Source: Frankiales bacterium (GTDB lineage: Bacteria; Actinomycetota; Actinomycetes; Mycobacteriales; Jatrophihabitantaceae). From it: a DNA stretch of 64,000 bases. Positions 11,440-38,647 of the stretch are shown one piece after another. Below the pieces are notes generated by a model. The model saw nothing but the letters and a program-made list of their open reading frames with translations. It was not told where the DNA came from and made no database searches. The first letter of the stretch is position 1, and each line of letters starts with the position of its first letter. Both the position numbers and the translations under genes were made by a program. The DNA lies in the NCBI GenBank assembly GCA_025966315.1, contig JAOPUZ010000022.1, forward strand, positions 1-64,000, written 5' to 3'.

Positions 11440-11440
11440 C

Positions 11441-23700: not shown

Positions 23701-23897
23701 ACGATTTGGCGGGGCCGGTGCCGTCTGATCCCAACTACCGTCGCGACGACGGACGAAAGACCCAGTGGTGTCCAGAGTTCGAGATGGTAGGCCGGGAATT
23801 CGAAGTAGAGCGCCGCGACGATCAGTCCGAAAGTCAAATACCGCTGTGTCGGCGTGATACGCGCGGCGACCTTGCGGAATCGGGTCGGCGCTGGCAC
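20796..23897 (-). CDS. Membrane-bound PAS-GGDEF-EAL protein (cyclic di-GMP turnover)
   Basis: This 1033-residue protein has nine or ten hydrophobic segments in the first ~320 residues, a GAF-like region, a PAS domain (ILQNASDIVVIVDVRGQITY), a GGDEF domain (about 615-775) with intact FGGDEF, and an EAL domain (about 781-1020) with CEALVRWQHP and MDDFGTGYSS. Both catalytic motifs look intact, so it could make and degrade cyclic di-GMP; domain balance is unknown. I place the start at GTG 23897, preceded by GGGGAGAGG, rather than an in-frame ATG at 23948 lacking a ribosome site. Confidence 0.92.
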   Translation of the reverse strand: MPAPTRFRKVAARITPTQRYLTFGLIVAALYFEFPAYHLELWTPLGLSSVVATVVGIRRHRPRQIVAWYLLAAAEFFFIAGDTTYTIARVVLHEPNPFPSLADVFYLLTYPCFAAGLLLFIRARSAGRDRADLIDALIVTAGLALLSWVYLVIPNFQAEGLSALQRLISVGYPLGDVLVVAMLVRLIGGGGLRQRSMQFLVLGAIGLLVSDVLYGLIQLNGDWHENGPVDIGWLLFYLAWGCAGLQPSMAGLSDIVPRRNQRMGGWRVAALTLVSLIAPAILFIESTSQSTVEATTIAVFSAALFLLVIARLWILLEVHKQSIRRERILRASSEALVAAQGLAEIYQVAVDGALALISGPASTHASIYLIQGDDDPTCVAHSGAQPSARRPEQLRQMAESGGRLTASGTVSVTPIRYDSQDRGMLVVDSAVAMTLEQHDVLAILAAQVALAVASAQLGADLRQRQGEARFRGILQNASDIVVIVDVRGQITYSTPSLARNLGRHDDEVLGHELAEFLHEADAAQALTMFSEFGVRAEPAEAVADWHLRHRDGRLMAFEVLSNNLLADPHVSGIVLTMRDVSERRALEVELKHQAFHDSVTGLPNRALFQDRAEHALARVARIGTIVAMLMLDLDDFKNINDTRGHAAGDELLQELASRLQKMVRSGATVSRFGGDEFAILVEDLTEVSQAERFAERALDLFAAPFTIQGEAVTVRASIGLVVTGGVYDWFDMTELMRCADVALYAAKGRGKQQVVLYHSDLNTLMLDRLNGRSDLERAIKAEEFVLHFQPIVLVDTGAPVGCEALVRWQHPSRGLVPPLDFIELAEETGLIVDIGRWVLEQACAQLRAWADAGLPPVRMAVNVSARQLRESTFVDDLRAALGRYDISKDQLVLELTESLFALDSPEISAQLRGLRELGIKIAMDDFGTGYSSLAYLQKLQLDILKIDKSFVDGLGNGDADGSTLVEAIISLSASLHLEVVAEGIERVAQRDELRAMGCRLGQGYLFSRPVDSDAMTAVLVSASIGRSQPLVGR

Positions 23898-24124
23898 GGC
23901 AGCCTCTCCCCTAGAATTGTGGCCATAAATTAGCCTGGACGGCTGCACGCATGTGCCGCGGTCGCAGTCTGGCGCACACCATTATCTTCGGCGGCGATTA
24001 CGCAAACTTGAGAATTTGCGCCAAATCCTGATGATCTTCGCGGGGCCACATCATGCACCGTTACCTGCCCTAACGCCTGACTGCACCCACTTCGCATCGG
24101 GCTGGACGGCGCTGCGCGCTGCGT

Positions 24125-24934
24125 TCAGGCAGCGCCAAGTTCCTTGACCTGCTCGGCGAACCAGCGGCAGATGTCCTCGCCGGCCTGTGCTCCGACCGAA
24201 CCGGTGCTCTCGACGCCAGCGCAGGTCCAACCAGACTCGGTGATCTCGCCGTGGGCCGGATGAATTCCGCGATCCGCCAGCTCCAGAAGATCGATGTCGA
24301 GCAACGAGTCTCCCGCGGCCAGCACGACATCAGCGCCAACCCGACGAGCTACCTCACCCACCGCAGCCGACTTTGTGAGCGGACGCGGTACGACATAGAG
24401 CTTGCTTCCCTGCAGTGATGTCGACCACCCACGAGCGGCGGCCCAAGCGGTGATCTCGACCAAGAAATCTTCCGGGACGTCGGCACGACGCACGACGGCG
24501 TAGCAGAACATGTCCTCGGCATTGCGGAGTTTCAGCGTCCAGTCCGGCTCGCAGACCGCCTGCAGGTGCAGCCAGATTTCCGGCAGCGGAGCAGCGAGCC
24601 GAAGCACGCCCGTGACCGTTCGTTGCCAGTCTTGGTCGATGACTCCGTCGACGAGCAAGACACCGCCATTGGCCGCGATCGCAAACCGCGGCGATCCGCT
24701 GGGCAGGGTCACGCGTTGCAGTTGAGCCGGTATGCGAGTGGTGACCGGCACGACTTCCGCGACCTGAGCAAGCCAGACCAATAGCCGAGCGGCCGTCATC
24801 GTCATGAAGGACGAGTCGCTGCCTTCGTAGCGTTCGACACACGCCAGGTCCGGGACGACTTCGGGGGCCAGCGCCAGCGCTGCACGGGAGTAGATCAGAG
24901 TCCGATCAAGGTCAGCGGCGACGATGATCCTCAC
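24125..24934 (-). CDS. HAD-superfamily phosphatase of the Ter locus
   Basis: This 269-residue HAD hydrolase has motif I as VAADLDRTLIYS (nucleophile and acid Asp at about 8 and 10), a C2-type cap in the middle, the motif III lysine in RPLTKSAAVGEV, and motif IV in LAAGDSLLDIDLLELAD. The fold is of the sucrose-phosphatase/Cof type. In Ter loci this HAD co-occurs with PRTase and CitE-like genes and is predicted to dephosphorylate an intermediate of nucleoside-like metabolite synthesis. Its start overlaps the PRTase stop by 4 nt, so the proteins are translationally coupled. Confidence 0.85.
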   Translation of the reverse strand: MRIIVAADLDRTLIYSRAALALAPEVVPDLACVERYEGSDSSFMTMTAARLLVWLAQVAEVVPVTTRIPAQLQRVTLPSGSPRFAIAANGGVLLVDGVIDQDWQRTVTGVLRLAAPLPEIWLHLQAVCEPDWTLKLRNAEDMFCYAVVRRADVPEDFLVEITAWAAARGWSTSLQGSKLYVVPRPLTKSAAVGEVARRVGADVVLAAGDSLLDIDLLELADRGIHPAHGEITESGWTCAGVESTGSVGAQAGEDICRWFAEQVKELGAA

Positions 24935-27591
24935 GCCGGCGGCTCCGCGGTATCGAATCCCGATCGTGCCGTCGTTCCGGATGCGCTGCCGGCGGTCTGG
25001 GTGTAACCGGGGTGGATGAGCCCGACGCAGCTATAGGTCAGGTCGTCGACCAATTCGACGTCGACGCCGCGCTGCCTGGCCAGCACGATGACGTGTTCGA
25101 GTTCGGCTACTCGGTCGGGACGCATGAGCACCTTCCAGGGCATGCGGCGCAATAGCACGCGCGTCGTTTCGCCCACTCCGGGTTTGATCAGGTTGACCTC
25201 ATCGATCCCGTAGCGACGCCCGAGCTCCTCTACCATTCTCCAGCCCTGCCAGGTCGGTTCGGTCAGGATGCGCCCAGCCGCGCGGTCGGCCATCGTTTGC
25301 GAGACGGCGCCTTGTACCTCACCGAACCGCACGCTGATGGCGGCCAGGAAGCTGTTCGACAGATCGGCGTCCTCGAGGTGTCGGTAGAACTTTGCCCCGT
25401 GAAAATCCGACGGACCGACGAGGCTGTCGTTCAGGACGGTACGGGACACCAGACCGGACACGGTCGAGTTCAGACATGCCGACGGGATCAGGTAGTCCTC
25501 GCGAGTGCCGAACAGGCGAACGCACGCGCCGGTGTCAGCCAGTACCGCTAGTTCCGCGGAGAATTCGGCGCCGGCGGACAGTCGGAGGGCGGTATTGGCC
25601 TGCCGTACGGCGACAGCCAATTCCCGAGCTATGGCGCCCTTGCCGGTCCAGCCGTCAACGAAGACGATCCCCGACGGATCGTGTCGCGCGGCCAGATACC
25701 GCAACGCCGTCATGTCGATGCCGCGTCCGCGCACGATGCTCGCCGCGTAGTGCGGCAGTTCGATGCCGTGCAGCCGCGCAATCCATCGCCGGATCAGTAT
25801 TCCGACTGGTGTGCCGGCACGCGCGAGCGATACCAGAACCGCTGAGGGCCCGCGCTCGGCCAGCACGAGTTCTGCCACCACGCCGACGGCATGCGCGACC
25901 TGCACCGACGAACGCCGCAACGCGTTGCGGTAGAGCTGTTGATACTCCGCGCTGGGCTGATATTCGATCGGCAACGACGACGCGTAGTGGGCGCCGCGAG
26001 TTTGAATCGCTTCTTCGCGTTCCTCGGTCGGCGCCTCCAAATCAACATCGGACAGGTCCTTCAACAGCCACAAGACCTCGTCGGCGGCGTAACTGCCGAA
26101 CCGCGGTCCGTGCAGCGGGACGCCTGCGGGCAGTCGGGCCGGAATCCACACCAGGTGGACCTGGTCGGCCGCACCCTGCAGCAGCGGAACCAATCCCCCA
26201 GCCGAGCAAAGCGTCTCGGAGTCCGACATGTCGTCGACGACGAGCACGATGTCACTGAAGCGCCGGGCCGGATCGGCTCCTGCGAGCACGTTGTAGGCGT
26301 ACCGCGGTCCGGATCCGTCGTCGGGACTGTCGTGAGCCGGAAACGTCAGGCACGTGCGTATGGCGTAAGCCGGTTCGTCCACGGCCAACACCGGTGACCG
26401 GGTGGTCGTCGAATACCAGACGGTGACGCCGGGCTCGCCTGAGTTGGTCTGGCTCGGCAGTAGTTCCTGCAGCGCGAGGGCGATACGTAAGGGCGCGTAC
26501 ATCAATTCCTCGGTGCCGAGAACGAGCACCCGCCGGGTACTTCCGTCGGCGCTCGAATCCTTCCTGATGGCATCGGCCACCTCCGCGGCGCACGCTTGTG
26601 CGGCCGAGGCCATGGCCAGGCTGTCCTCGGAGTCGAATCCGTGCCTTCCGCCTTCGGCGACGCCCGGGGGCCAGCGACGGACCTCGTGTAACGCACGACC
26701 GGTGGCAGGAGCAGGGCCGGGCACCGAGCCCGGTCGGGGCGCACCATAGCTGGCGACTAACGCGGCTCCGCGTTCGAGCACGGCGGGGTGCAATTCCAGC
26801 CGAGCATCAACCAGGGCAACCACGATGATGGTCAGGCCCCTGCGCTCGGCCCACGCCGACATTCCTTCGCGGTCCTCGTCCGAACGCAGGTCAACCAGAC
26901 TGGCCAGGACGTAGGTCCGACGCGGTGACTTCCGGTCCAGCGCAGCGATGGTGTTCAGGATGGTCCGGCCAGTAGAGAGCTCATCGTCGACGAGAACGAG
27001 AGGTGCGGCACCAGCGAGAAAGCGGCGGTCGGCAGGTAGCAACAGATGCCCGGTGGCGTGGGAGTGTTCCTCCTCAAAGCCGCTCACCGGATCCAGGCCG
27101 ACAACTTTGCGGCGGGTGGAATGCAGGTAGCTGGCCCCGAGTGAATCAGCCACGGCGTGGCCAAGACCGGTCGCGGTCTCGGCATAGCCGAGGACGACAG
27201 GCGGATCTGCCCACGGGGCCAGTTGATCGCGGTGGCACGAGCACCGTTGCAGCAACTGCTCCGCCGCGGCGCCGGACCCGTCCAGCGCTTGGACCAGGGC
27301 CAGTTCTGCCTCCGCTCGGATGCCTGAATCCAGCCCGGTCAGCGCATCGGCGACCAGCGCACCCAACAGGCGACCCGCACCGTACACAACCCTCGGGTCA
27401 GTTGGAACATGCTTACCGAGCACGGTGGAAACCAGTAGCTGCGCACGTTTCGGGTTGAGACGCAGTGCCATTCCCACCAGGTGCTGCGGGGTCAGCCCCC
27501 CGCGCGGTCTGACGTCCGTGCCGCTGCAGGCGGCCGCTAGTTTCGCGTTCAGCCGATCAGCTACCCAGTCACCGCTCCAGGGCATCGTCAC
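24931..27591 (-). CDS. Fused PRTase-TRSP-StiP-PELOTA protein of the Ter locus
   Basis: At 886 residues this is a multidomain fusion. A first phosphoribosyltransferase (about 30-285) has the PRPP loop VDDELSTGRT (201-210). A TRSP-like region (about 350-500) contains LGTEELMYAPLRIALALQE and VVDDMSDSET. A second, StiP-type PRTase (about 500-770) has VSLARAGTPVG and the loop VFVDGWTGKGAIARE (644-658). The C-terminus (about 795-860: EVNLIKPGVGETTRVLLRRM ... LTYSCVGLIHPGY) resembles the PELOTA RNA-binding module. These modules are often separate genes. Published Ter-system analyses predict a role in nucleoside-like metabolite synthesis. Domain names are from memory of those families. ATGA overlaps join it to both neighbours. 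Confidence 0.82.
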   Translation of the reverse strand: MTMPWSGDWVADRLNAKLAAACSGTDVRPRGGLTPQHLVGMALRLNPKRAQLLVSTVLGKHVPTDPRVVYGAGRLLGALVADALTGLDSGIRAEAELALVQALDGSGAAAEQLLQRCSCHRDQLAPWADPPVVLGYAETATGLGHAVADSLGASYLHSTRRKVVGLDPVSGFEEEHSHATGHLLLPADRRFLAGAAPLVLVDDELSTGRTILNTIAALDRKSPRRTYVLASLVDLRSDEDREGMSAWAERRGLTIIVVALVDARLELHPAVLERGAALVASYGAPRPGSVPGPAPATGRALHEVRRWPPGVAEGGRHGFDSEDSLAMASAAQACAAEVADAIRKDSSADGSTRRVLVLGTEELMYAPLRIALALQELLPSQTNSGEPGVTVWYSTTTRSPVLAVDEPAYAIRTCLTFPAHDSPDDGSGPRYAYNVLAGADPARRFSDIVLVVDDMSDSETLCSAGGLVPLLQGAADQVHLVWIPARLPAGVPLHGPRFGSYAADEVLWLLKDLSDVDLEAPTEEREEAIQTRGAHYASSLPIEYQPSAEYQQLYRNALRRSSVQVAHAVGVVAELVLAERGPSAVLVSLARAGTPVGILIRRWIARLHGIELPHYAASIVRGRGIDMTALRYLAARHDPSGIVFVDGWTGKGAIARELAVAVRQANTALRLSAGAEFSAELAVLADTGACVRLFGTREDYLIPSACLNSTVSGLVSRTVLNDSLVGPSDFHGAKFYRHLEDADLSNSFLAAISVRFGEVQGAVSQTMADRAAGRILTEPTWQGWRMVEELGRRYGIDEVNLIKPGVGETTRVLLRRMPWKVLMRPDRVAELEHVIVLARQRGVDVELVDDLTYSCVGLIHPGYTQTAGSASGTTARSGFDTAEPPA

Positions 27592-28745
27592 TGCTGCAAT
27601 CCGGCACCGAGGAGGTCGACGAACGACGTCGTCTCGTTGGCAACTCCGAAGATATTCGCGCGATCGATTATCCGATTGGCCCAGGCCGCGTGGGGCTTGG
27701 ACTCGTTCATCTTGTTTCGATAGGACGATGCGCGGACCCCGCCGCCGGCTCGGTCCAGAATGTCGACGGCGTCGCTGTACTCCTCGTGGGTCACCACCGA
27801 CAGCGCATGCACCGCCCCGACGTGCGTTGGGTGGATGACCGTCTTTCCGACGAGTCCGTTCGCCTTGTCCAGCACGAACTCCCTGATGAGGCCGTCCAAG
27901 TCCTTGGCGATGATCCCGGCGCGCAGTGAGCGCTCCGAATGTTCGACGAAGGGTGACTCGCGCAGTTGAGGTTTGAACAGGCGCTCGCTGCCGGAAAAGT
28001 ACTCCCAGACCGGGCCGGTCACCGTATAGCCGGCGTCGCCAGCGCGGCCGAGAATGTTGACCACGTCGGCGATCACGTCGGCAAGTATCCGTACGTCGTA
28101 CACCGTGAGGTCGCGCGAGCGTCGAAGCCCGTACACCGCACTGAGATCAGTCGCTCCTATCCGCAGAGCGAGTATCAGGTGCCGATACTGCTCCAGCAGA
28201 CAACGCACTTTCATCAGCTCATCGATCCGGGTTTCGGCGTGCATGATGTCGTTCGACTCCAGCACTGGCATGGCGAGTATGCGTCGGTGCGTCAGGTCGG
28301 CGGCTTCGACGACCGCCTCCAGGAAAGCCGGTCCCCGCTTTGCTGTGAATTTCGGGAGCACAAAGCCGGTTATCACGTCGGCGTGATCACCGAGCCCGTT
28401 GATGAGCATCGGGATCTGCTCTGCCGTGCGAACCCGGACGAAGACCAGCGTGTTTGATTGCGCGTTCGCGCTGTAGGCGCGCAATTGCGCGATGACGTTG
28501 CGCTCGGCCGCGATCAGGTCCTTGTCAGCGACGGCGTCCTCCAGGCATACGACCGAACTCTTCACGCCCTCGTCGGCCCGCTTGGCAAGATCGGCCGCGA
28601 GGGTCGGGCGGGTGGCCGGACTGTACAGAGTCGCGCCGAGGGCGACCGCGAGCCGGTTGATAGGAGCCGAAGCGTCGAAGCTCTGCGGTACCCGGTAAAA
28701 AAGGCGCGCCTGCTCCGCGTCGGAGAGGAAGTCGAAATGTCGCAT
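27588..28745 (-). CDS. CitE/HpcH-like C-C bond lyase of the Ter locus
   Basis: This 385-residue TIM-barrel protein resembles citrate lyase beta subunit/HpcH enzymes. [18 protein letters not shown] carries the acidic Mg-binding start, [13 protein letters not shown] and [18 protein letters not shown] follow, and [20 protein letters not shown] and [16 protein letters not shown] are family-typical. In Ter loci a variant of this family is thought to form or break a C-C bond in the locus-encoded pathway; the substrate is unknown. It is the first gene of the three-gene operon (CitE-like, PRTase fusion, HAD), diverging from the TerD-fusion gene across 132 nt. Confidence 0.82.
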
Positions 28746-28877
28746 GCAGGTCCTCGATCATTGACGTACGAGCGCTTGGTTGTGGTGGCTCGGCATCGCG
28801 GGCCGTATCTCAACGCTAGTCGAGCAGGCATCGGACGCACGAACAAACGCGTCCCTTTGTCTGGCACCATCTATGTC

Positions 28878-30197
28878 ATGACCACGATGGCCAAGGGATC
28901 CAACGTCGCCCTTTCCGCCGCGTCCGTGCGAGCCACGCTCACGTGGAGCGCCTTGCCCGGGGTACCCGACATCGACTTCTCCGCTCTGTTGCTCACCGCC
29001 GAGGGCAAGGTCCGCTCGGACGCGGACTTTGTCTTCTACAACCAGCCGCAGCACGCGGTTTCCGCCGTTCGGCATCTCGGCAAGAGCCGCAACGCTGACG
29101 CTCTGCAGGTCACGTTCAACGGTATCGAAGCGGACATCGACCGCGTCCTGTTCGCCGCGTCGGTCGACGGCGGCACCTTCGGCGCGGTTCCGGATCTGCA
29201 GGTCGTGCTGACCGACGATGCGAACTCCGCTGAGCTTGCCCGGTTCGCCATGACGGCGACGACCGAGACCGCCTTCCTCACCGGTGAGCTGTACCGGCGG
29301 TCCGGGCAATGGAAATTCCGCGCGGTCGGTCAGGGCTATTCCACCGGCCTGGCTGGGCTGGCGACCGACTTCGGCATAACGGTTGAGGCCGAACCAGAAT
29401 CCGTGCCGCCCGCGCCTATCCCGCCATCGACGGCGCCGCCCTGGCAGGCCGGCCCTCAAGTGCCGCCCGCGCCTGTACCGCCATCGACGGCGCCGCCCTG
29501 GCAGGCCGGCCCTCAAGTGCCGCCCGCGCCTATCCCGCCGTCGGCGGCGCCGCCCTGGCAGGCCGGGCCCCCCACTGAGGCAGCAGCCGCTGCGCCGGCG
29601 GCGCCGAGCGGTCCAGTGAATCTCGACAAAGGCCGGGTCAACCTGCGAAAGAACGAGCGGGTCAACCTGGTAAAGAACGGTGCGCCGGCGCTGACCCAGG
29701 TGGTGATGGGGCTGGGCTGGGATCCTGCTGCCGGTCGACGCGCGATCGATCTGGACGCCTCGGTCATCGCCTTCAACGCTCAGCTCACGCAACTCGAAGT
29801 GGTCTGGTTCATGAACAAGAAAGCGTTTGGTGGAGCGATTCGGCATACCGGAGACAACGTGACCGGTGCGGGTGAGGGCGACGACGAACAGATCAAGATC
29901 GACCTGTCAAAATTGCCGGCCGACGTTGCCTACTTGATGTTCACCATCAATTCCTTCCGTGGCCAACAGTTCACGGAGATCGCTCGGGCGTTCTGCCGAC
30001 TGGTCGACGGACGCGGTGGGAGCGAACTCGTTCGGTTTGAACTATCCGGAGCTCAGCCGCGCACCGGTGTCCTGATGGCCGTGCTGTCGCGCGCATCGGC
30101 TGGCACCTGGGACATGCGCGCGCTGGGCGAGTTCCACGACGGCAAGACGGTAAAGGCAATGGTGGGACCGGCAGCGGAACTGCTGCGTCGCGGTTAG
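28878..30197 (+). CDS. Double TerD-domain protein with repetitive Pro-rich linker
   Basis: This 439-residue protein consists of TerD domain 1 (about 1-172, starting [10 protein letters not shown]), a Pro/Ala-rich linker (about 173-245) made of three 19-residue repeats, and TerD domain 2 (about 250-437). Domain 2 has the acidic calcium loop [16 protein letters not shown]; in domain 1 the equivalent region ([14 protein letters not shown]) has lost it. TerD domains bind calcium and take part in tellurite/stress responses. I chose ATG 28878; the frame is open to 28458 but that part is antisense to the lyase. It is the only plus-strand gene in the ter locus. Confidence 0.85.
29403..29573 (+). repeat. 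Three 57-bp tandem repeats in the TerD linker
   Basis: Units begin at 29403, 29460 and 29517, each encoding [19 protein letters not shown] or a close variant. Copies 1 and 2 differ at only a few bases; copy 3 is slightly more diverged and ends differently. The repeat preserves frame, so copy number can change linker length without disrupting the protein. Confidence 0.92.
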
Positions 30198-30207
30198 CGC
30201 TAAGTCG

Positions 30208-31245
30208 TTAACGCTCACCGATCAGCGGCCGGCGATGGTCCACCCAGCTGATCCGATCGAATCCGTAGGCAGTGACGGCGGCTTGAACCCCGCCCTCGAA
30301 TTGCTCCATCTCAGCCCGCACCACGAATTCGCCGCGGATGTTGTAGACCGATTGCAAGACGCTGACCCGCGCCGATGGTGGGCGGTTCAGCAGTAGCTCG
30401 ATCTGGTCACCTCCCGTCGTGGTCGTGACCAGGGTGCCGGCCCAGTTCAGCGTGCCGCCGCTCTCGGAGAAGGCGTACACGATAAGGCGTTCGATCGTTC
30501 GCGACTGGACGAGGTCGATGGTTAGCCGCTCGAACTCGGTGTGTCCGGCGATGATCACCGGACGGCTTGAGTCGGCAGGCGCGGTAACGATGCCGCTCGA
30601 ATGCTGAACCACAGAAGACAGGCCGGACGACAGCTCGTAGGCGCAACCAAGCCTCAGGTCGCCGACGGCCGGCGAACAGACGGCCTCAATGCTGATCACA
30701 CCGACGCCGGACTGGATGCGGCTCAACGTCACGACGGGTTCGTTCGGGCTCAAAACCGTTGGCATGCCGCGGCGGGGCCGGCGCAGGTGAAGCCGTGCCG
30801 GTACCTGGCCGGGCCGCGGATCCACGCCCGGCGCAGCGGCCGTCGGCGCCGGAACGGACGACGCGGCAGCAGGCGGCGCGGGATCCGACCGTGGCGCACC
30901 GAGCGAGGTCGGAATCGATAGGTCGAGCTCATTGGTGACGACCGGCTGCGGGGCCGGAGCGGGAGCCGTTGTGGTCGTCGGAGCGAGAGCCGCGGCGGGA
31001 GCGGTTGCGGGAGTCGCTGCGGTCGTCGGAGCGGGAGTCGCTGCGGGAGCCGCGGCGGGAGCCGTAGTGGTCGTCGGAGCGGGAGCCGCTGCGGTCGTCG
31101 CAGCCGCGTCCGCACGGCGACGCGTGCGCGAATGAATGAAGTCGGCCACGGCGCTGAGCGCGGGATCGGCGGAGGGCGGTTTCGATCGGTGCCGTAGAAA
31201 GGCCAGATCGTCTCGCCGCGGCGCGATTTCTGGTCTGGCGATCAT
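30208..31245 (-). CDS. Divergent TerD-like protein with Ala/Pro/Thr-rich N-terminal region
   Basis: This 345-residue protein begins with about 45 charged residues, then a low-complexity region (about 46-105) of APTTTTAPAAAPAATPAP type, another Pro-rich stretch, and a C-terminal TerD-like domain (about 165-340). The domain is recognisable by DLRLGCAYELSSGL, which parallels DLDLGCLYELTNGR in the gene at 36704. The calcium loop is absent (APADSSRPVIIAGHT). It is the last gene of the long ter operon, overlaps the preceding terD by 4 nt and ends 10 nt from the convergent double-TerD gene. Confidence 0.7.
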   Translation of the reverse strand: MIARPEIAPRRDDLAFLRHRSKPPSADPALSAVADFIHSRTRRRADAAATTAAAPAPTTTTAPAAAPAATPAPTTAATPATAPAAALAPTTTTAPAPAPQPVVTNELDLSIPTSLGAPRSDPAPPAAASSVPAPTAAAPGVDPRPGQVPARLHLRRPRRGMPTVLSPNEPVVTLSRIQSGVGVISIEAVCSPAVGDLRLGCAYELSSGLSSVVQHSSGIVTAPADSSRPVIIAGHTEFERLTIDLVQSRTIERLIVYAFSESGGTLNWAGTLVTTTTGGDQIELLLNRPPSARVSVLQSVYNIRGEFVVRAEMEQFEGGVQAAVTAYGFDRISWVDHRRPLIGER

Positions 31246-31805
31246 AGGGTGATGCCGTAGTCGGTGGCGATCCCCACGATGCCTTTGGAATATCCGTCAC
31301 CGATGACCTTGAACTTCCATTCGACGCCATGCCGGTAGAGCTCGCCCAATACCAGCGCGGTCTCCGATGTCAGCATGGGGGCGAGGTCTTCCGACCGAAC
31401 AAGTTCGGCGTTGTCGACGGCGTTGAGAACCCTGATACGGCAGCTCCGCAACTGCCCCAGGGAACGCCGTTGGGCGATGCCCTCGTTGAGATACATCACG
31501 ACCACGATGCGCTCCACGTCAGGCGGGACGCTCGGCAGGTCGACCTCGATCTGCTCGTTGTCCTCCCCCAGCGCCGCATCCCGCTGGGCAACGGATTCGT
31601 CCGGCGAGCTCAGCTGATTGAAGAAGACGAAATGCTCGTCGGACAGGGCTCGGCCGGCGTGGTCGCACAGGATTGTGGCGACGACCAAGTTGTTGGTCAG
31701 GACCTTCTCTGCGCCCGCCGTGAACTCGACCCCCAGGACGATCGAGCGAAGCGACGGAATCTCCTGCGTCAGAGCTACGTTCGAGCCACGAATCATGTCT
31801 GCCAT
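31242..31805 (-). CDS. TerD-family protein with degenerate calcium loop
   Basis: This 187-residue protein has normal TerD length. Recognisable parts are IRGSNVALTQ at the start, DEHFVFFNQL, and the C-terminal LGELYRHGVEWKFKVIGDGY ending in GIATDYGITL. The calcium loop, normally HTGDNxTGxGxGDDE, reads SVAQRDAALGEDNEQ, so metal binding is doubtful. It directly abuts the stop of the 31806 gene. The protein probably serves as a structural partner of canonical TerD proteins. Confidence 0.88.
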   Translation of the reverse strand: MADMIRGSNVALTQEIPSLRSIVLGVEFTAGAEKVLTNNLVVATILCDHAGRALSDEHFVFFNQLSSPDESVAQRDAALGEDNEQIEVDLPSVPPDVERIVVVMYLNEGIAQRRSLGQLRSCRIRVLNAVDNAELVRSEDLAPMLTSETALVLGELYRHGVEWKFKVIGDGYSKGIVGIATDYGITL

Positions 31806-32306
31806 CTAGAGATCCAGATCCGAACCGGCGAACTTGGTCCGCAGAAAGGTCCCTTGGGTCATCAGCGCGTCGATGTCCAGGTTCCGCGCCGCGGTCAGCA
31901 CCAGGTCGGCCGAGATCTGCAGGGCCTCTATCTGCTCCAGGAGCGACTGGGTGGCCGTCAGCGCCGAGGGACGAGGTGAGTCGCGCAGTTCCTCGTCGAC
32001 CGCAAGATATGTTCGTATGGTCGTCGGGAGGTAGTCCGTAAGCGTGCTCCGGATGTTGATGACGGCGTAAACGTCGAGCGGACGAACGTCTGAGGTGCTG
32101 ATGATTTCGCGCAGGGTATCGGTCACGCGTCGGGCGTTGACGACCGCCTCGCCGGGTAGCCGCCCGGAGTTCTGGTTGATCATCCGGACGGCGTCGAACA
32201 CCAGACCGCGCAGGGCGTCCGGGCTATCGCTTACATCGGGCTCAGCCGACGCCGACGCCGATGGCAACCCGGCAGCAGGCCCTCGCTCTCTCCGAAATCG
32301 GCTCAT
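31806..32306 (-). CDS. TelA-associated protein of unknown function
   Basis: This 166-residue protein is mostly helical, with DYLPTTIRTYLAVDEELR in the middle and SLLEQIEALQISADLVLTAA near the end. In many bacteria telA is paired with an xpaC-type gene that has a comparable helix with a YLP motif, and this protein occupies that place, 71 nt after telA. Homology to XpaC is an inference from position and a short motif only. No membrane segment or enzymatic motif is visible. Confidence 0.6.
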   Translation of the reverse strand: MSRFRRERGPAAGLPSASASAEPDVSDSPDALRGLVFDAVRMINQNSGRLPGEAVVNARRVTDTLREIISTSDVRPLDVYAVINIRSTLTDYLPTTIRTYLAVDEELRDSPRPSALTATQSLLEQIEALQISADLVLTAARNLDIDALMTQGTFLRTKFAGSDLDL

Positions 32307-32377
32307 ACTTCAGTTCCCACATCTCGCGACTGAATGGCGTATTTGCAACCGGCAACCCGCAGCCCGCGGAAGGAGAT

Positions 32378-33598
32378 TCAGGCCGATAGCTCGCCGCGAC
32401 GGGTTCGCTCCAGGTACGGCTTGGCGCGTTCAATCTGTCCCTCCAGCGCGTTGACCGTCTGGGCCATCGAGTCGACCGCCTGGGCACGAAACGTGTCCAC
32501 CGCGTCCATGGTTGCAAATACATTGTCGAATGCAGCTTGCAGCTTGGCCACTTCGATGGTTGAGGAAGCCGCCTGTTCGTTGATGGCGCCACCCTGCAGC
32601 TTGAGTTGTTCGGAGGTGGACTCGATCAGGTTGGACGTGACGGTGTTCAGCGCATTGATCTGATCGAGGACCAATTTCTGGCGGGACAGGGCCTGCGAGA
32701 CGATGACGGCGATGCGCAGCGCAGCGATTGTTGTGGTCTGCGCGCGATCGACCCCCTTGATCAGCTCGATGTTGTTCTTACGGATCAGGTCGAGCGCCAT
32801 GTAGCCCTGCACGTTGACTGCCATCTGGGTCATGAGGTCCTGGCGGCGTTGCCGGATCGGGAACAGTGCGTCGGACCGCATGATGTTGGCGTTCTCGGTC
32901 TGGCCGGCGGCTTCCAGTTCGCCGACCTTGCGCTCAACGGCGCCGTCGAGAGCACTCGCCAGCGTGTTGTACTCGCTGATCTTGCCCATGGTGGTCCACA
33001 TGTTGGCCTTCTCGGTGTCGATGGCCGCATTGTCTTTGCGCAGCTCGTCCTGACCGGAGGCCAACGCCTTGATGATGGCGTCGATATGGGACTGGGCGGA
33101 GCGGTACTTGTCGAAGTACCGGTCCACCTTGTCCCCTCCGGGCAGCCACTTGAGCAGTTTCTTTACCCCGGACAGGTCCGATCGCTTCGGGTCCAGGTCA
33201 GTGACGGTGTGCCGCAGATCGACGAGGGTGTTCGAAACTCGACTCTGGGCGTCGCCACCCTTACCCTTGCCCACCGCCGCGGCCGGACGGTCGAGCATCC
33301 GGTTCGACATGGCTGCGGCCGCGCGCATGTCGTTGTCACCCATCGTGGTGATCTGGGCAACCTTCTGCGAAAACTCCGGAGATTTCGGATCCAGCGCGGC
33401 CAGGCCGTCGACGAACTGTTCCGCCTTCGACCGGAGTTCCACCTGCTTGGCGTCGTCGACCGGTAAGGCGCCGGCGGCCTGTTCGGCCTCGACGACGACG
33501 ACCGGAGCCGGCGGCTGGAGGACGAGGACGGCGCCTGACGGCTGGGCCGGTGCGCTGGTCGGGGTGGCAGGGGTGGATCCGAGATCAAGTTCGGACAT
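32378..33598 (-). CDS. telA: Toxic anion resistance protein TelA
   Basis: This 406-residue protein matches the TelA (toxic anion resistance) family. A Pro-rich N-terminus is followed by long helices: AEQFVDGLAALDPKSPEFSQ, the KLLKWLPGGDKVDRYFDKYR signature, LFPIRQRRQDLMTQMAVNVQ, GVDRAQTTTIAALRIAVIVS, and a long coiled-coil end. TelA is linked to tellurite and envelope-stress resistance; the mechanism is unclear. It lies in the long ter operon between terD (33691) and the probable partner gene (31806). Confidence 0.95.
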   Translation of the reverse strand: MSELDLGSTPATPTSAPAQPSGAVLVLQPPAPVVVVEAEQAAGALPVDDAKQVELRSKAEQFVDGLAALDPKSPEFSQKVAQITTMGDNDMRAAAAMSNRMLDRPAAAVGKGKGGDAQSRVSNTLVDLRHTVTDLDPKRSDLSGVKKLLKWLPGGDKVDRYFDKYRSAQSHIDAIIKALASGQDELRKDNAAIDTEKANMWTTMGKISEYNTLASALDGAVERKVGELEAAGQTENANIMRSDALFPIRQRRQDLMTQMAVNVQGYMALDLIRKNNIELIKGVDRAQTTTIAALRIAVIVSQALSRQKLVLDQINALNTVTSNLIESTSEQLKLQGGAINEQAASSTIEVAKLQAAFDNVFATMDAVDTFRAQAVDSMAQTVNALEGQIERAKPYLERTRRGELSA

Positions 33599-33690
33599 GC
33601 TGGCGATCTCCTTGGGACGTGTTGAAACATGCGAGGGGACAATCTTCTCGTACCACTACCGCTGAGCCACCCGCCACACAGATTTTGGCG

Positions 33691-34269
33691 TCACAGCTGG
33701 CCGGCGAGCGCCGGGAGCAGGTCGTGAAAGGTCCGCCCGGTGGCCGGTATGCCCAGCGCGGTCATGGTCCAACCCGAACCGTCTCGCGACAGCTTCGCCA
33801 TGATCTGTGCCGTATGGGCGCCGCTGCCGGTGAGGTTGTACTTGGCGATTTCGGCATCTGCCGACGTCTCGTCCAGCAGCCGACAGTGGGCGTTCTCGAT
33901 CTGCGAGAAGGTCTGGCCGGTGAAGGAGTTCACGGTGAAGACGAGGGTGCTGATCTGTGCCGGCACGTGAGCAAGGTCGACCTGGATCGATTCGTCGTCC
34001 CCCTCACCGGCGCCGGTCCGGTTGTCGCCGGTGTGGTGAACGGAGCCATCCTTGGAGTCGAGTTGCTGGAACCAGATCTGATCGACCAGGCGGCCGCTTG
34101 CGTCGAACAGCAGGGCGGAGGCGTCCAGGTCGATGCTCTGGGACTTCGAGCCGAACAGCCCGCGCTTCTTGACGGCGTCCCACCCGAGCCCCATCCGGAC
34201 CTTGGACAGCGTGCCGCCACCCTGCTTCTCGAGCGAGACCCGCTGTCCCTTGCTCAAATTCACCGTCAT
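33691..34269 (-). CDS. terD: TerD, canonical calcium-binding form
   Basis: This 192-residue protein is a canonical TerD: NLSKGQRVSLEKQGGGTLSK, GLGWDAVKK, SIDLDASALLFD and the intact acidic loop [16 protein letters not shown], then FTVNSFTGQTFSQIENAHCR. I prefer ATG 34269, which gives the standard length, over a GTG at 34281 whose ribosome site would overlap the start codon. It lies between the DUF475 and telA genes. Confidence 0.93.
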   Translation of the reverse strand: MTVNLSKGQRVSLEKQGGGTLSKVRMGLGWDAVKKRGLFGSKSQSIDLDASALLFDASGRLVDQIWFQQLDSKDGSVHHTGDNRTGAGEGDDESIQVDLAHVPAQISTLVFTVNSFTGQTFSQIENAHCRLLDETSADAEIAKYNLTGSGAHTAQIMAKLSRDGSGWTMTALGIPATGRTFHDLLPALAGQL

Positions 34270-34314
34270 TACACCGGTCACCCTTCGCGAGATGGATCGC
34301 CGCCACGGGCGCCG

Positions 34315-35487
34315 TCAGGGCGCCTGCCGCGATGCCGTCTCCAGATTACTGCCCAAGTCCGCAGTCCGCGCTGAGGTCGTATCCGAGCTGTCTTCGCGAA
34401 GTGCGCGCCGGTTTCGGATGGTCGAGGAGATCAGGGCCAGCAGGATGAAGCCCACGCCAACGAGGCCGGTGACGACCTCGGGCACCTCATAGGTGATGGT
34501 GATGAGCAGAATTACCGCCAGCGCCCCAATCGCCCAGTGCGCGCCGTGCTCGAGGTAGCGGAATTCGCTCAGCGTGCCCTTGCGAACCAGGAAGACGGTC
34601 AGCGACCGGATGTACATCGCCCCGATACCCAGCCCGATAGCGATGATGATCGGATCGGAGGTGATGGCGAATGCGCCGATGACGCCGTCGAAACTGAAGG
34701 TTGCATCGAGCACCTCGAGGAACAGGAAGACCCCGAACGCGGCGCGTCCGGCCAGGCCGACCATGACCTTGGCGGACCCTGGCGTGCGGTCCGTGCCAAC
34801 CCCGGTTCCGGACTCCTCGGCGCCAGAATGCTCGGCGTTGTCCAGGTCGGCTTCGAACATCCCGCCCAGGCTGTTCACCACGAGGTAGGTGATTAGACCG
34901 AAGGTGCCGGCGAGAAAGACGCTCGAAGTCTTGTCCTCGTGAGCGATGAAGGTGGCGGCGAGCGCGAGCACGATACCGGACACCACGACGGCAATACGGT
35001 CCACGCGTCCGATACGGGCCAGCGGTCGCTCCAGCCAGGACAGCCAGGTGATCTCACGCTCCTCGAATACGAAGTCGAGGAACAGCGTCAACAGGAATAT
35101 GCCGCCGAAGGCCGCGATCGCCGGGTGCGCGTCATGCAGCAGGTTTGCGTACGTACCCGGAGTGTGGACGCTGCCACCATCCAGGGCCAGGTGATAGGCC
35201 GTCACCGGACTGATCTTGGCGGTGAGGCAGACGATGACGACGGGGAACAGCAGCCGCATACCGAATACAGCGATGAGCACGCCCACGGTAAGAAACAACT
35301 TCTGCCAGTAGGCGTTCAGCCGCGCCACGTGTTTGGCATTGACGACCGCGTTGTCGAATGAGACCGAAATCTCGAGGATCGCCAGAATCAGCGCGACCGT
35401 GAAGCCAGTCATCCCACCATAGAAATAGGCCAAGACCAGCCCGATGGCGGTGACGCCGAGGGAGGCTCCGAACGTTCTCAATAACAT
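34315..35487 (-). CDS. DUF475/TerC-superfamily membrane protein
   Basis: This 390-residue protein has about nine membrane segments. LEISVSFDNAVVNAKHVARL carries the membrane-embedded acidic residues (E, D) typical of TerC-type proteins, and a second copy in the C-terminal half reads LEVLDATFSFDGVIGAFAIT. The middle cytoplasmic loop is rich in acidic residues (EADLDNAEHSGAEESG). TerC-superfamily proteins are proposed metal transporters or membrane hubs for Ter complexes, and related ones export manganese. It would anchor the soluble TerD/TerB/TelA proteins at the membrane. Confidence 0.9.
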   Translation of the reverse strand: MLLRTFGASLGVTAIGLVLAYFYGGMTGFTVALILAILEISVSFDNAVVNAKHVARLNAYWQKLFLTVGVLIAVFGMRLLFPVVIVCLTAKISPVTAYHLALDGGSVHTPGTYANLLHDAHPAIAAFGGIFLLTLFLDFVFEEREITWLSWLERPLARIGRVDRIAVVVSGIVLALAATFIAHEDKTSSVFLAGTFGLITYLVVNSLGGMFEADLDNAEHSGAEESGTGVGTDRTPGSAKVMVGLAGRAAFGVFLFLEVLDATFSFDGVIGAFAITSDPIIIAIGLGIGAMYIRSLTVFLVRKGTLSEFRYLEHGAHWAIGALAVILLITITYEVPEVVTGLVGVGFILLALISSTIRNRRALREDSSDTTSARTADLGSNLETASRQAP

Positions 35488-35545
35488 TTAGATTCCTTGC
35501 AGATAGGAGCCCGCGGGCGGGTAACTTCGTTTTCGCGGGGACTCA

Positions 35546-35609
35546 ATGGCGTGGTTAGTCGATGGCGTGGTTAGTCGATGGCGTGGTGAGTCAATGGTGT
35601 GGTGAGTTA
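35546..35609. repeat. Four 16-bp tandem repeats between the ATP-grasp and DUF475 genes
   Basis: Units ATGGCGTGGTTAGTCG begin at 35546 and 35562 (identical); units at 35578 and 35594 carry a few substitutions. The last unit contains the ATP-grasp stop codon (35607-35609). The array fills about half of the 119-nt space between the genes. The 16-bp unit is not a multiple of three, so copy number changes shift frame beyond the stop. Confidence 0.88.
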
Positions 35610-36707
35610 GTGGTGCTGTGCGATCGCCGGCACCGATCTCGCACCGCGCTGTGGTCGCAACGCCGGGACGGTCGTGTAGCAGATGTCGTGTCGTGTCGGG
35701 CCGACCGACGGGTCCTGACCGAGGACCATCCGCACGGCCGCCCAAGCCAGATTGACCCCGGCCAATGCCGTCTGAAACAGACCGGCCGACATCCGCGTGT
35801 TGACCTCGAGCAAATATGGCACCGGTGCTGCGTCCTGCGGAGCCTGCCAGTAACGAAGTTGGGTGTTGGAGACATAGCTCAGCCGATGCGCACGCACCAA
35901 CGCCTCGGCCACGTCCTGCGCGGCCTGGTCGAAAACGATGGCGCGCTGTCGGCACGATTTGCTACGCCCGACTGAGGCAATCGTGATCCCATCGGTGTCG
36001 GCGAGTAGGTCGACGCTGATCTCGGGACCGGGTAAGTAGGGCAACATCAGCAACGGTGGAATCGAACGACCTGCTGCCGCCGCGCAATCGATTGCCTCGG
36101 CGACCGCCCGAACGGACACGGTCGGGCTGAGCGGCCCCAGGATGTCGACTAGCAGCGGCGCCCGATGGTCAAGAATTCGGAACCCCTCTGCACCCGCACC
36201 GGTCACGGGCTTCAGGCAGATCTGCCCATACGCGAAAGACATTTCGTCGTACGCATCGAGCAGAGCCTGCGCCGACGTGATCACCCGATGGGGCGGAACC
36301 GGCAGGCCGCGCAGGGCGGCGTCAGCGTAGGTTTCTGCCTTATCGGCGAAGTGCCGTATCGCCGCGGCGGGTGGGGCCATAAGGGCCACGCCTTGGGCCG
36401 CGAACAGCTCACCGGCGCCGGCCAGCGAATCCATCTCCACGCGGGGTATGAAAACGTCGACGCCGTGCCTGGCCGTGAACTCCAACGCCCAAGAAACGTA
36501 GTCCTCGCCGGTGACATCGGCGTCCGGCTCCGCCGCAGCGACATCGCTGGCCTGCAGCATGGGCGAAGTCGGGTCAGAGTGAGTGGCAATCACCTTGACG
36601 GCCCGGCCATCCGGGTTGTCACGTAGCAGATCGATGACGTGCACGTTCGTGGCGTAGGTGCGGTTGAAGTAGATCGTCAACGGCGTCCGGCCGGACTGGA
36701 CGGTCAC
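35607..36707 (-). CDS. ATP-grasp domain protein of the ter operon
   Basis: This 366-residue protein begins PLTIYFNRTYATNVHVIDLL (preATP-grasp Rossmann part). ATP-grasp features include HFADKAETYADAALRGLPVP, ICLKPVTGAGAEGFRIL, LMLPYLPGPEISVDLLAD and LLEVNTRMSAGL, the last carrying the metal-binding Glu and Asn. ATP-grasp enzymes ligate a carboxylate to an amine or thiol via an acyl phosphate. In Ter loci they are predicted to act in metabolite synthesis with the PRTase and lyase genes. I chose GTG 36707, which overlaps the preceding stop as GTGA; the frame's upstream ATG lies inside the TerD-like gene. Confidence 0.85.
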   Translation of the reverse strand: MTVQSGRTPLTIYFNRTYATNVHVIDLLRDNPDGRAVKVIATHSDPTSPMLQASDVAAAEPDADVTGEDYVSWALEFTARHGVDVFIPRVEMDSLAGAGELFAAQGVALMAPPAAAIRHFADKAETYADAALRGLPVPPHRVITSAQALLDAYDEMSFAYGQICLKPVTGAGAEGFRILDHRAPLLVDILGPLSPTVSVRAVAEAIDCAAAAGRSIPPLLMLPYLPGPEISVDLLADTDGITIASVGRSKSCRQRAIVFDQAAQDVAEALVRAHRLSYVSNTQLRYWQAPQDAAPVPYLLEVNTRMSAGLFQTALAGVNLAWAAVRMVLGQDPSVGPTRHDICYTTVPALRPQRGARSVPAIAQHH

Positions 36708-37378
36708 TTGCGGCCGCGGGACCAGTTCATGCCCCAGCCGTAGGCCTTGTCCAGAGCATCCTGGGCTCCCTGGATGTAGCGCACCTCGCGGCGGACGGAT
36801 AACTGCCCGCCGTTGCCCTCGATCATCGCGATGGCACACATTCGGGAGCCGCCGGCCTGTTCGTCCAGACGTACCTCGATCGGTGCACCGTCGGCCGGTT
36901 CCAGGGTGACGACACCGTTGGCCTGATCGAAACTCGCGACACCCGTGTAAATGTTGGCGAAAACGAGGATTCGGCGGATGTCCTGGGCATGCGCGAGGTT
37001 GATATACATGTCTTCCCCGCCGACGTCCGCCCCCGACCGGTCATCACCGCTCAGGAGAATGAACGGTTCGCTGTCGAAGCTACCGAACATGTTGCCCAGC
37101 GCCTGTACGGCGCCTTTTCTTCCATTGGTCAACTCGTACAGGCAACCCAGATCGAGGTCGATACCGCTCGGCTCGTTCCGCCGCTTGAAAATGCTGGTAG
37201 TTGCGGGCGGCAGCGTGCGCGCGTCCCAGTTGAGGTTCACCCGCATTCGACCCGTCTGCTTCTTCAGCGAGACTGACGGGCTGGCCTTGGTCAGCGTGAC
37301 TTTAGTGAGCGACGCCGCCGCGGTCTGCGAAGCGGGACTGGAAGGGCTGGACGGCCGCTTGGTGTAGTCAATCGCCAT
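36704..37378 (-). CDS. TerD/TerA-like protein
   Basis: This 224-residue protein has a Ser/Thr-rich start, then TKASPSVSLKKQTGRMRVNL, GIDLDLGCLYELTNGRKGAV and a degenerate acidic region DDRSGADVGGEDMYIN in place of the canonical loop, ending in a positively charged tail after GWGMNWSR. Acidic residues remain, so altered metal binding is possible. The overall pattern resembles TerA/TerF-type members of the family. It follows a strong stem-loop after terD and overlaps the ATP-grasp gene by 4 nt. Confidence 0.82.
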   Translation of the reverse strand: MAIDYTKRPSSPSSPASQTAAASLTKVTLTKASPSVSLKKQTGRMRVNLNWDARTLPPATTSIFKRRNEPSGIDLDLGCLYELTNGRKGAVQALGNMFGSFDSEPFILLSGDDRSGADVGGEDMYINLAHAQDIRRILVFANIYTGVASFDQANGVVTLEPADGAPIEVRLDEQAGGSRMCAIAMIEGNGGQLSVRREVRYIQGAQDALDKAYGWGMNWSRGRK

Positions 37379-37416
37379 CAGATCTCCGCCTTTGGTTAAT
37401 GGCTATCACTTCGAGG

Positions 37417-37467
37417 AGCGTGCTGGTCCCTGCGCCTGCTTCCGGCGCAGGGACCGGCTAGCACGCT
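37417..37467. promoter_or_regulatory. Large stem-loop inside the ter operon
   Basis: GGTCCCTGCGCC (37425-37436) pairs perfectly with 37444-37455 across a 7-nt loop. After a 4-nt bulge, the outer AGCGTGCT (37417-37424) pairs with 37460-37467, giving 20 bp in all. It begins 8 nt after the terD stop on the minus strand. No T-run follows, so it is more likely an mRNA processing or stability element, or a partial terminator, setting TerB/TerD levels above downstream genes. Confidence 0.75.
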
Positions 37468-37474
37468 GAGCTGG

Positions 37475-38050
37475 TCAGATGTTGACGCCGTAATCGCGTG
37501 CAATTCCCGCCAGGCCCGAGGCATAGCCCTGCCCGACGGCACGGAACTTCCACTCTGCCCCGTTTCGGTACAGCTCACCGAAGACCATCGCCGTCTCGGT
37601 GGACGCGTCCTCGGTCAGGTCGTAGCGCGCGAGCTCGGTGCCTCCGGCCTGATTGACTATGCGGATGAAGGCATTGCGCACCTGGCCGAATCCCTGGGCG
37701 CGAGCCTCGGCATCATAGATACTCACCGGAAAAACGATCTTGTCGATTTCGGCTGGGACTGCGGCGAGATTTACCTTGATGCTCTCGTCGTCACCTTCGC
37801 CTTCACCGGTGAGGTTGTCCCCCGTGTGCTCGACTGATCCGTCCGGCGACACCTTGTTGTTGAAGAAGACAAAGTGGGTGTCGGACAGCACCTTGCCGTC
37901 TGGCTTCAGCATGATCGCCGAGGCGTCGAGGTCGAAGTCGGTACCGGTTGTAGTCCGCGCATCCCAGCCCAGCCCGACGAGGACCGCGGTGAGACCGGGC
38001 GCCTCCTTGGTCAGAGATACATTGCCACCTTTGGTGAGGCTCACTGCCAT
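37475..38050 (-). CDS. terD: TerD, canonical calcium-binding form
   Basis: This 191-residue protein is the most typical TerD of the locus: [40 protein letters not shown], the full acidic loop [16 protein letters not shown], and the ending [20 protein letters not shown] with RDYGVNI. It is a soluble calcium-binding beta-sandwich protein. It is the second gene of the operon after terB, with an unusually strong hairpin behind it. Confidence 0.96.
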
Positions 38051-38191
38051 GATGTCTTGGTTCCTTTCCTTGACGGTTCAGGTGTTGGTTCTTGCATTTG
38101 GCGCAGGACATGCCCAAGGCATGCGGCCCGCGCGGATCACTACGAATGAGCTGATCTTGCGAGGGTCCAGCCGAGGTTGCTTCGTCAACCG

Positions 38192-38647
38192 CTACAAATC
38201 GAACTCCGTCGGCGGGATGCCGACGGCGAAGCAGACATCGCGAACGGTCTTGCGCTCGTGTTGGTCGAAGTCACCATCGGCCCCACCGATGATTATGCCG
38301 ATCGAGATCACCGCCCGCGCCTGTTCTGGCTTGGATTTCAGCTTGCCGACGGTAGCGACCGCCTCAACCTTGCCGAAATCGAAATCCTGGTTGAGCTTGT
38401 CGCAATACCAGTCGAACTTCTGGCGAAGCTCGGCGGCGTCAAAGATCGAAAGAATCTCATTATTGGCGATCAGTGCCGCCGTCTTTTGCCGCTCCGTGGG
38501 CTCGATCGATCCGTCGGCCGCCGAGATCAGCGCGCACATCGCCATGCTGGCGTTGGCGAACTCCTTGTTGCGAAACTGGTCCGACTTGGTCTTGAGCTGA
38601 GCGCTCATGGTCTGCGTTCGCGACCTCAACTGGTCCCAGAGGGCCAT
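38192..38647 (-). CDS. terB: TerB
   Basis: This 151-residue all-helical TerB domain has two acidic metal-binding turns, AADGSIEPTE and GADGDFDQHE, and typical segments MALWDQLRSRTQTM and TVGKLKSKPEQARAVISIGI. TerB binds divalent metal and links TerD proteins to the membrane component. It starts at ATG 38647 after AAGGAGCAGGGA and is the first gene of the ter operon, so the promoter should lie in 38648-38816. Confidence 0.95.
   Translation of the reverse strand: MALWDQLRSRTQTMSAQLKTKSDQFRNKEFANASMAMCALISAADGSIEPTERQKTAALIANNEILSIFDAAELRQKFDWYCDKLNQDFDFGKVEAVATVGKLKSKPEQARAVISIGIIIGGADGDFDQHERKTVRDVCFAVGIPPTEFDL

Follow-up and report, generated by a model that had tools for sequence, protein, structure and literature searches.

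What chemistry does the biosynthetic arm of a Ter/Tel stress locus carry out? The question is raised by a block of genes at positions 24125–38647 of a 64,000-nucleotide stretch of DNA from a Frankiales bacterium (contig JAOPUZ010000022.1; this whole stretch is called the window), which lies on contig 9 of the source draft genome (4.56 Mb, 77 contigs). The block sets TerD, TerA-like, TerB, TerC-family and TelA proteins beside a C-C bond lyase, a four-domain fusion protein, a phosphatase of the haloacid dehalogenase (HAD) type and an ATP-grasp ligase. Anantharaman, Iyer and Aravind reportedly described a Ter-dependent stress response system with a biosynthetic arm in 2012. A Ter system with a nucleoside-like biosynthetic arm is described in the available text of PMC7824862 and PMC8115787. 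The initial annotation had likened the locus to this published system, and the likeness is borne out by those descriptions and by the joint occurrence of StiP and TerD in the same 12 of 26 relatives; its statement that the product and the trigger of the arm have not been reported agrees with the literature found, as far as the available texts go. We propose, with a probability of roughly 0.5, that the locus joins a membrane-linked half for sensing and metal handling to a half for ribosylation from phosphoribosyl pyrophosphate (PRPP). The new element is evidence that two enzymes of the arm, the StiP domain and the HAD phosphatase, resemble a known two-step attachment of ribose. The gene content of the block, the conservation of its catalytic residues, its co-occurrence in other genomes and its predicted folds were established by computation.

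The fusion protein and its partner enzymes

The fusion protein (886 aa; 24931..27591, minus strand) comprises PRTase_2 (residues 38–263; Pfam E-value 3.9e-63), TRSP (313–461; 4.8e-32), StiP (499–752; PF11202, 2.3e-102) and a PELOTA/L7Ae-like tail (781–860; PELOTA_1, 7.6e-33). An AlphaFold2 model of the whole protein (36 rows) had a mean predicted local distance difference test score (pLDDT) of 88.9; the VIA-align rows obtained with this model were filled by the PRTase_2 domain and so cover PRTase_2 only. This domain matched adenine phosphoribosyltransferases (APRT; Foldseek, 2.6e-6; VIA-align, Z 13.0, 3.4 Å, 177 residues aligned) and, weakly, PyrR, and its modelled fold is APRT-like. It retains the motif VLVDDELSTGRT, which we take to be the PRPP motif, and D166, E167, T170, G171 and T173 are present in at least 95% of 30 rows. 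A comparison of the TRSP and PRTase_2 profiles gave E 1.5e-4 over 58 columns with a probability of only 52%, and TRSP may be a degenerate copy of a phosphoribosyltransferase (PRTase).

Folded alone, the StiP domain reached a pLDDT of 91.6. With VIA-align, 8a0c scored highest (Z 11.9, 4.4 Å, 200 residues aligned), followed by 8a0m (Z 11.6) and 7shg (Z 11.1, 4.0 Å, 194 residues), and the PyrR structure 1ufr came below these three (Z 10.0, 4.1 Å, 150 residues). The entries 8a0c and 8a0m both represent a capsule multienzyme of which CriT is a part, and 7shg is a polysaccharide ribofuranosyltransferase. The aligned range of 8a0c (639–939) covers more of StiP than PyrR does, and it appears to take in the helices that flank the catalytic core, as in the description of CriT; the models thus predict for StiP a PRTase fold with a flanking helical bundle. 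Among 28 diverse rows, R104-A-G-x-P108, S131, D139, F157-V-D-G-W161, G165, D199, S229 and R230 were invariant, and His 48, 127 and 244 reached 90% conservation. According to the available text of PMC10299916, CriT moves ribose-5-phosphate from PRPP, using the acidic pair D680 (loop 1) and E818 for ribose, and the HAD enzyme CrpP then strips the phosphate; the same two-step scheme is given for gPRT and PRP in that of PMC11127046. D159 of StiP may match E818 of CriT. Judged by its modelled fold, StiP may work like these PRPP-dependent ribofuranosyltransferases, and we do not file it as a member of their family because its lead in Z is small and no sequence similarity was found.

The second step would fall to the HAD phosphatase (24125..24934, minus strand), which is trehalose-/sucrose-phosphatase-like and whose catalytic residues (D8, D10, T65, K188, D209 and D213) are invariant in 11/11 rows, including those of phage ME3 and of a distant variant locus, L147. 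The protein had no Pfam match at E 0.01 and matched HAD-type NCBIfam families, all below their cut-offs; against PDB it matched a trehalose phosphatase (4.5e-13), and its profile matched the trehalose phosphatase 6d3v (3.7e-65, 223 bits, with 37 bits for the next family). Cross et al. reportedly found in 2018 that the extrachromosomal trehalose-6-phosphate phosphatase (ecTPP) of Pseudomonas aeruginosa is active on trehalose-6-phosphate. The Ter HAD of the Pseudomonas plasmid pPUV-4 contains exactly two cysteines, at positions 85 and 231, and the odds of two cysteines in a 252-aa protein falling on two given positions are 1 in 31,626. In the available text of PMC6838324, Cys85 and Cys231 are called specific to P. 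aeruginosa ecTPP, this protein is assayed as a trehalose-6-phosphate phosphatase, and no mention of a Ter locus was found; nor was a paper linking ecTPP with a Ter locus found in the literature searched, outside which most subscription journals lie. From these cysteine positions, P. aeruginosa ecTPP is very probably the Ter HAD of the pPUV-4 type or a near-identical one, which very probably makes it a member of the Ter HAD family. An enzyme of this family has probably already been expressed.

Directly upstream of the fusion gene, with a 4-nt overlap, lies the gene of a CitE-like C-C bond lyase (27588..28745, minus strand; PF15617, 1.1e-119), which matched CitE 1sgj at 1e-11. Its R104 and R106, presumably the catalytic arginines, and its E163 and D200, presumably the metal-binding Glu/Asp of the CitE family, are invariant in 12/12 rows. 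The ATP-grasp ligase (ATPgrasp_Ter, 1.3e-26; 35607..36707, minus strand, in an open reading frame (ORF) that opens at 36839) resembles carbamoyl-phosphate-synthase-like proteins and biotin carboxylases, with K162, R281, E297 and N299 invariant in 8/8 rows.

The tail of the fusion was found in 123/123 StiP ORFs from 123 loci (117 by motif pattern and six variant motifs by eye), of which 116 are distinct, as some loci overlap. It contains a G-x-(N)-E-x-x-K/R motif, and its profile (25 rows) matched L7Ae proteins in PDB, with 1sds as the best match (E 4.8e-4). Up to E 10 there were 44 chains, 10 of them at E ≤ 0.01; 43 belong to the L7Ae family, in which we count S12, p38 and one 'ribonucleoprotein' by assumption, and 4m7o does not. 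The conserved motif KPGVGETTRVLLRR aligns with IKKGANEVTKAVERG of L7Ae, a stretch that we take to contact RNA. The tail is thus predicted from its sequence to be L7Ae-like and of an RNA-binding type.

In the scheme that we propose, the Ter half (TerD, TerA-like, DUF475/TerC, TelA with a small partner, and TerB) would form a membrane-linked complex for sensing and metal handling. PRTase_2 would convert PRPP to a ribosyl-5-phosphate intermediate, and StiP would pass phosphoribose to an acceptor, either a small molecule or RNA, held by or delivered with the tail. After ribosyl transfer, HAD would remove the 5-phosphate; the lyase would supply or trim a carbon unit; and the ATP-grasp ligase, where present, would add a carboxylate or an amino acid. 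We infer that PRPP is the donor for both PRTases, that the reactions run in this order, that the linkage is an O-linkage and that the Ter half has the role given here.

Several results weigh against this scheme. The link between StiP and the ribofuranosyltransferases is purely structural, and 7shg exceeds PyrR by about 1 in Z. With Foldseek, PyrR came first (1.2e-4), the top 50 rows were nearly all PyrR, HGPRT and their relatives, and 8a0c and 7shg were absent from these rows. Searched against PDB up to E 10, the StiP profile matched no chain of a PRTase or a ribofuranosyltransferase, and hhalign gave nothing between StiP and PRTase_2 (0.6%, E 0.1), so that the attempt to prove at the sequence level that StiP is a PRTase failed. 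D680 of CriT, the second acidic residue, has no evident equivalent in StiP. The matches of the tail to L7Ae are weak, only 3 of the 44 chains lying at E ≤ 0.001. The HAD of one further locus (L139) has cysteines at 85, 121 and 231, so that more than one protein has Cys at 85 and 231, and the cysteine match is therefore firmer for the HAD family than for a single protein; moreover, activity on trehalose-6-phosphate could reflect promiscuity. Finally, the lyase was undetected in the variant loci L146 and L147 and in phage ME3, and because of this and the frequent lack of ATP-grasp, what we treat as one pathway may be several.

Possible acceptors of ribose and alternative explanations

The published model, set out in the available text of PMC7824862, holds that a soluble nucleoside or nucleotide derivative signals the threat, that TerB and TerD sense, and that TerC, TelA and TerF act at the membrane. 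An N-nucleoside would be its natural product because PRTase_2 is APRT-like. However, the model accounts neither for the tail of RNA-binding type nor for the presence of a second PRTase fold, the divergent one of StiP, and no product was found reported in the literature searched; we regard it as a tenable minority view.

A ribosylation arm could instead act on RNA, in that StiP-PELOTA and HAD would place phosphoribose on RNA bound by the tail, perhaps at a 2'-OH, and then dephosphorylate it. The presence of the tail in every StiP ORF, its L7Ae-type motif and the likeness of StiP to O-ribosyl transferases all point this way, whereas the acceptors of the structurally similar 8a0c and 7shg are glycans, no RNA target is known, and L7Ae-like domains can also bind proteins or be regulatory. 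RNA modification in this form appears unlikely. In its fullest form, which we consider a rather long shot, the Ter arm would be an RNA-ribosylating machine in which StiP puts phosphoribose from PRPP on tail-held RNA and HAD dephosphorylates it, leaving an O-ribosyl stress mark. If so, the 'nucleoside-like compound' would be part of an RNA rather than a soluble signal.

The Foldseek ranking of PyrR first for StiP, together with the weak PyrR matches of PRTase_2 and the RNA-binding-type tail, raises the further idea that the fusion is a PyrR-like RNA-binding regulator whose PRTase domains are sensors and not catalysts. This is improbable, as PRTase_2 retains its presumed PRPP motif and the fusion travels with the phosphatase and, at most of the loci examined, with the lyase, their catalytic sites intact. 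We also consider it quite improbable that the arm modifies an envelope glycan or a teichoic-type polymer with ribose. Such a role would follow the capsule and polysaccharide ribofuranosyltransferases that StiP resembles and would suit the membrane-linked Ter half, but the block contains no glycan-making family, the tail is of an RNA type, and no gene annotated as glycan-making occurs in the phage and plasmid stretches examined, many of whose genes are hypothetical. Lastly, that StiP is a cysteine protease processing a Ter component, as its name in Pfam and GenBank would have it, we reject as very improbable, because its predicted fold is that of a PRTase and no cysteine is invariant or 90% conserved in the 28 rows, the best column (in SACLNS) having Cys in 22/28, with G or S in its place in rows from plasmids, phage and viral contigs and in distant rows.

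The PRPP-based ribosylation scheme adds a testable chemical route and casts doubt on two labels, the protease label of StiP and the trehalose-enzyme label of ecTPP. For a type of locus that is very common but whose product was not found reported, PRPP-dependent ribosyl transfer followed by dephosphorylation offers a hypothesis that can be assayed on purified proteins. In Klebsiella, the available text of PMC8115787 ties one Ter locus to fitness in the gut.

Distribution and gene order

We surveyed a set of 41 related genomes, the source genome included, of which 26 are well assembled (≥90% complete, ≤5% contaminated). StiP was found in 21/41 of these genomes and in 15/296 genomes across the phylum (own included; 14 pass the cut-off, three are divergent); relatives occurred in 2,567/72,556 plasmid records and in 3/50,697 phage records, two of which are the same phage ME3. 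StiP and TerD were present in the same 12/26 well-assembled relatives and neither in the other 14 (Fisher's test, 1e-7, ignoring shared ancestry), and C-C lyase matches at E < 1e-100 were restricted to the same 12. Among these 12 genomes, TelA was found in 9, ATP-grasp (E ≤ 1e-26) in 7 and TerB in 4; TerB lies away from the locus in three of the four, and only the source genome has it at the locus. The less complete genomes included three mismatches, one with StiP and no TerD (G015) and two with TerD and no StiP (G009 and G020). As a separate observation, two genomes of the same genus (G003 and G006) have TelA and no TerD or StiP match, and relatives of ATPgrasp_Ter occur in two genomes with no StiP or TerD match (G038:C18:26669-27073, 4.4e-33; G024:C2:363467-363811, 1.4e-18).

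A scan of named genomes yielded at least 580 stretches encoding a StiP relative, and the best 80 (66–72% identical; from Streptomyces and other actinobacteria, among them Micromonospora and Sanguibacter) were kept, with up to 10 kb on each side. Sixty-seven of these loci, which were thus selected by StiP similarity, exceed 15 kb and were searched with our own profiles at E < 1e-10. PRTase_2, TRSP, StiP, PELOTA, HAD and the lyase were present in all 67; a TerA-like gene was found in 66, and the profile of the gene at 30208–31245, which also matches TerA-like genes, had matches in 48. TelA and the small protein at 31806–32306 were each found in 1/67, and ATP-grasp and TerB in 0/67. The core therefore consists of the C-C lyase, PRTase_2/TRSP/StiP/PELOTA and HAD, and ATP-grasp, TelA and TerB are optional. 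The initial annotation called the locus a good candidate for finding the product on account of its complete set in a single block; these counts, and the split form, as separate genes, in which the core enzymes occur on plasmids, do not support the idea that this sets the locus apart. The single polypeptide with all four domains of the fusion is shared with many actinobacterial copies, 96/135 domain-bearing ORFs holding all four. In genus g33, an ATP-grasp relative (E 3e-59 to 4e-66) occurs in 6/8 genomes, distant from StiP or on another contig, and the 13.5-kb surroundings of five of these six gave no other match to a Ter-locus protein at E 1e-3. An obligate ATP-grasp step at the locus is ruled out by these off-locus homologues, by the 7/12 relatives and by the 0/67 loci.

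More distant members keep PRTase_2 and StiP (L146, L147 and phage ME3), with HAD adjoining in L147 and ME3. L147 (5398-15916), like L146, is a variant Ter locus from a distant family of the same phylum in which C-C lyase and ATP-grasp are undetectable; it carries four AIM24-like genes (by eye), HAD, StiP, PRTase_2/TRSP, TerD, a TerD-TerA fusion, two more TerD genes and a TerC-type gene (by eye). An unverified 'Bacteriophage sp.' record (L145, MT836648.1), which may be bacterial DNA, encodes PRTase_2, StiP, lyase and TelA.

Within 24125–38647, 14 ORFs were found, and these and their Pfam matches uphold the 14-gene Ter/Tel block of the initial annotation, except that one gene, TerD-TerD, stands on the plus strand with the other 13 on the minus strand. 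The proposed biosynthetic set of lyase, fusion, HAD and ATP-grasp is likewise present, with the ATP-grasp gene placed inside the Ter arm between DUF475 and a TerA-like gene. The gene neighbourhood suggests that sensing is coupled to synthesis, as the initial annotation holds. The gene set is beyond chance because much of its order recurs in related genomes. The plus-strand orientation of the TerD-TerD gene (about 28878–30197) means that the block does not form a single operon, and gene spacing suggests three transcription units: TerB to 30208 leftward, TerD-TerD rightward, and lyase-fusion-HAD leftward from 28745. The genes of the last unit are joined by 4-nt overlaps; the divergent gap between lyase and TerD-TerD is 132 nt, given a TerD-TerD start at 28878, and the 3' end of TerD-TerD lies 10 nt from the facing unit. 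Sigma-70 promoters and terminators in the locus showed no excess over shuffled sequences.

Pfam places five TerD domains in four proteins of the block, and all five TerD matches of the draft genome fall there. The genome's best TerD match (4.3e-87) is the protein at 37475..38050 (minus strand), which, like the TerD protein at 33691..34281 (minus strand), retains the acidic motif DNxTGxGEGDDE; the motif, which we take to bind calcium, is degenerate and lost in the TerD protein at 31242..31805 (minus strand). In the TerD-TerD protein (28878..30197, plus strand; a chosen start in an ORF that opens at 28458), the two domains are separated by a proline-rich linker of three near-identical units. Besides HAD, three ORFs of the block had no Pfam match. 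The first, at 30208..31245 (minus strand), encodes a TerA/TerD-like protein (99.1%, 6.9e-19 against the TerA-like family with hhalign) whose N-terminal half contains a long low-complexity stretch of Ala, Pro and Thr; the second, at 36704..37378 (minus strand), encodes a TerA-like protein (92.1%, 6.3e-7 to TerD) whose family takes in a 388-aa TerD-family protein of Pantoea pPag2, and a GTG start at 36707 for ATP-grasp would give a 4-nt overlap with its stop. The third, the small protein at 31806..32306 (minus strand), is weakly XpaC-like (Halogen_Hydrol profile, 6.8%, E 0.005; suggestive motif DYLPTT) and adjoins TelA in all 13 other loci in which it occurs; in L145, TelA is present and the small protein is not.

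The remaining Ter-half genes, all on the minus strand, encode TelA (32378..33598; 1.3e-86), a DUF475/TerC-family membrane protein (34315..35487; DUF475 3.8e-122, TerC 5.1e-19) and TerB (38192..38647; 2.8e-24). TerC-family proteins in Bacillus metalate exported enzymes (PMC10550928 and PMC12096827, available text). In Klebsiella, terZ-F alone is enough for tellurite resistance according to the available text of PMC8115787, and the biosynthetic arm is therefore not needed for it. Membership in a known anti-phage defence family was rejected, as PADLOC gave a single weak match (TelA, 0.0021) for the 10 of the 14 block proteins submitted. Outside the block, a PucR-type regulator (38817-40019) lies on the same strand as TerB, 169 nt upstream; a match was found in 1/99 loci (L039, E ≤ 1e-10), for which reason it is probably no general Ter regulator, although many of the loci may not extend that far. 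The HAD gene is followed immediately downstream by the gene of a PAS-GGDEF-EAL protein (20796-23948), with one weak partial match in 99 loci.

Comparison with known systems

The pairs CriT/CrpP and gPRT/PRP, each a ribofuranosyltransferase with a HAD phosphatase, share with StiP a predicted PRTase fold with flanking helices and a HAD partner, which for StiP is encoded by a neighbouring gene and is not part of the same polypeptide. StiP differs from CriT and gPRT in having an RNA-binding-type tail and no glycan context, in the lack of detectable sequence similarity and in an acidic pair that is not fully matched. By its Cys85 and Cys231, P. aeruginosa ecTPP very probably corresponds to the Ter HAD of a plasmid like pPUV-4 and hence belongs to the window HAD family; the HADs of the window and of pPUV-4 are about 29% identical (74/251 alignment columns).

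The ter loci of pPUV-4 (Pseudomonas) and pPag2 (Pantoea) have ATP-grasp, PRTase, HAD, StiP, C-C lyase, TerB, TerC and TerD in common with the window, but as separate genes and with no TelA annotated in the stretches examined. Between lyase and TerD, pPUV-4 additionally carries genes for a trypsin-like peptidase and a second HAD protein (L159:5885-7024 and 11003-11731).

With the Ter system of the Anantharaman type, the window shares TerD, TerA-like, TerB, TerC-family and TelA proteins, PRTases, TRSP, PELOTA, HAD, C-C lyase and ATP-grasp. TerD and a TerC-family protein stand here with adjoining PRTase_2/TRSP, StiP/PELOTA, HAD and lyase and with ATPgrasp_Ter, and the locus is an ordinary member of this published system with a biosynthetic arm, which is common and known in its general form. 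It departs from that form in joining PRTase_2-TRSP and StiP-PELOTA in one polypeptide, in carrying ATP-grasp within the Ter operon and in a plus-strand TerD-TerD gene that parts the two halves.

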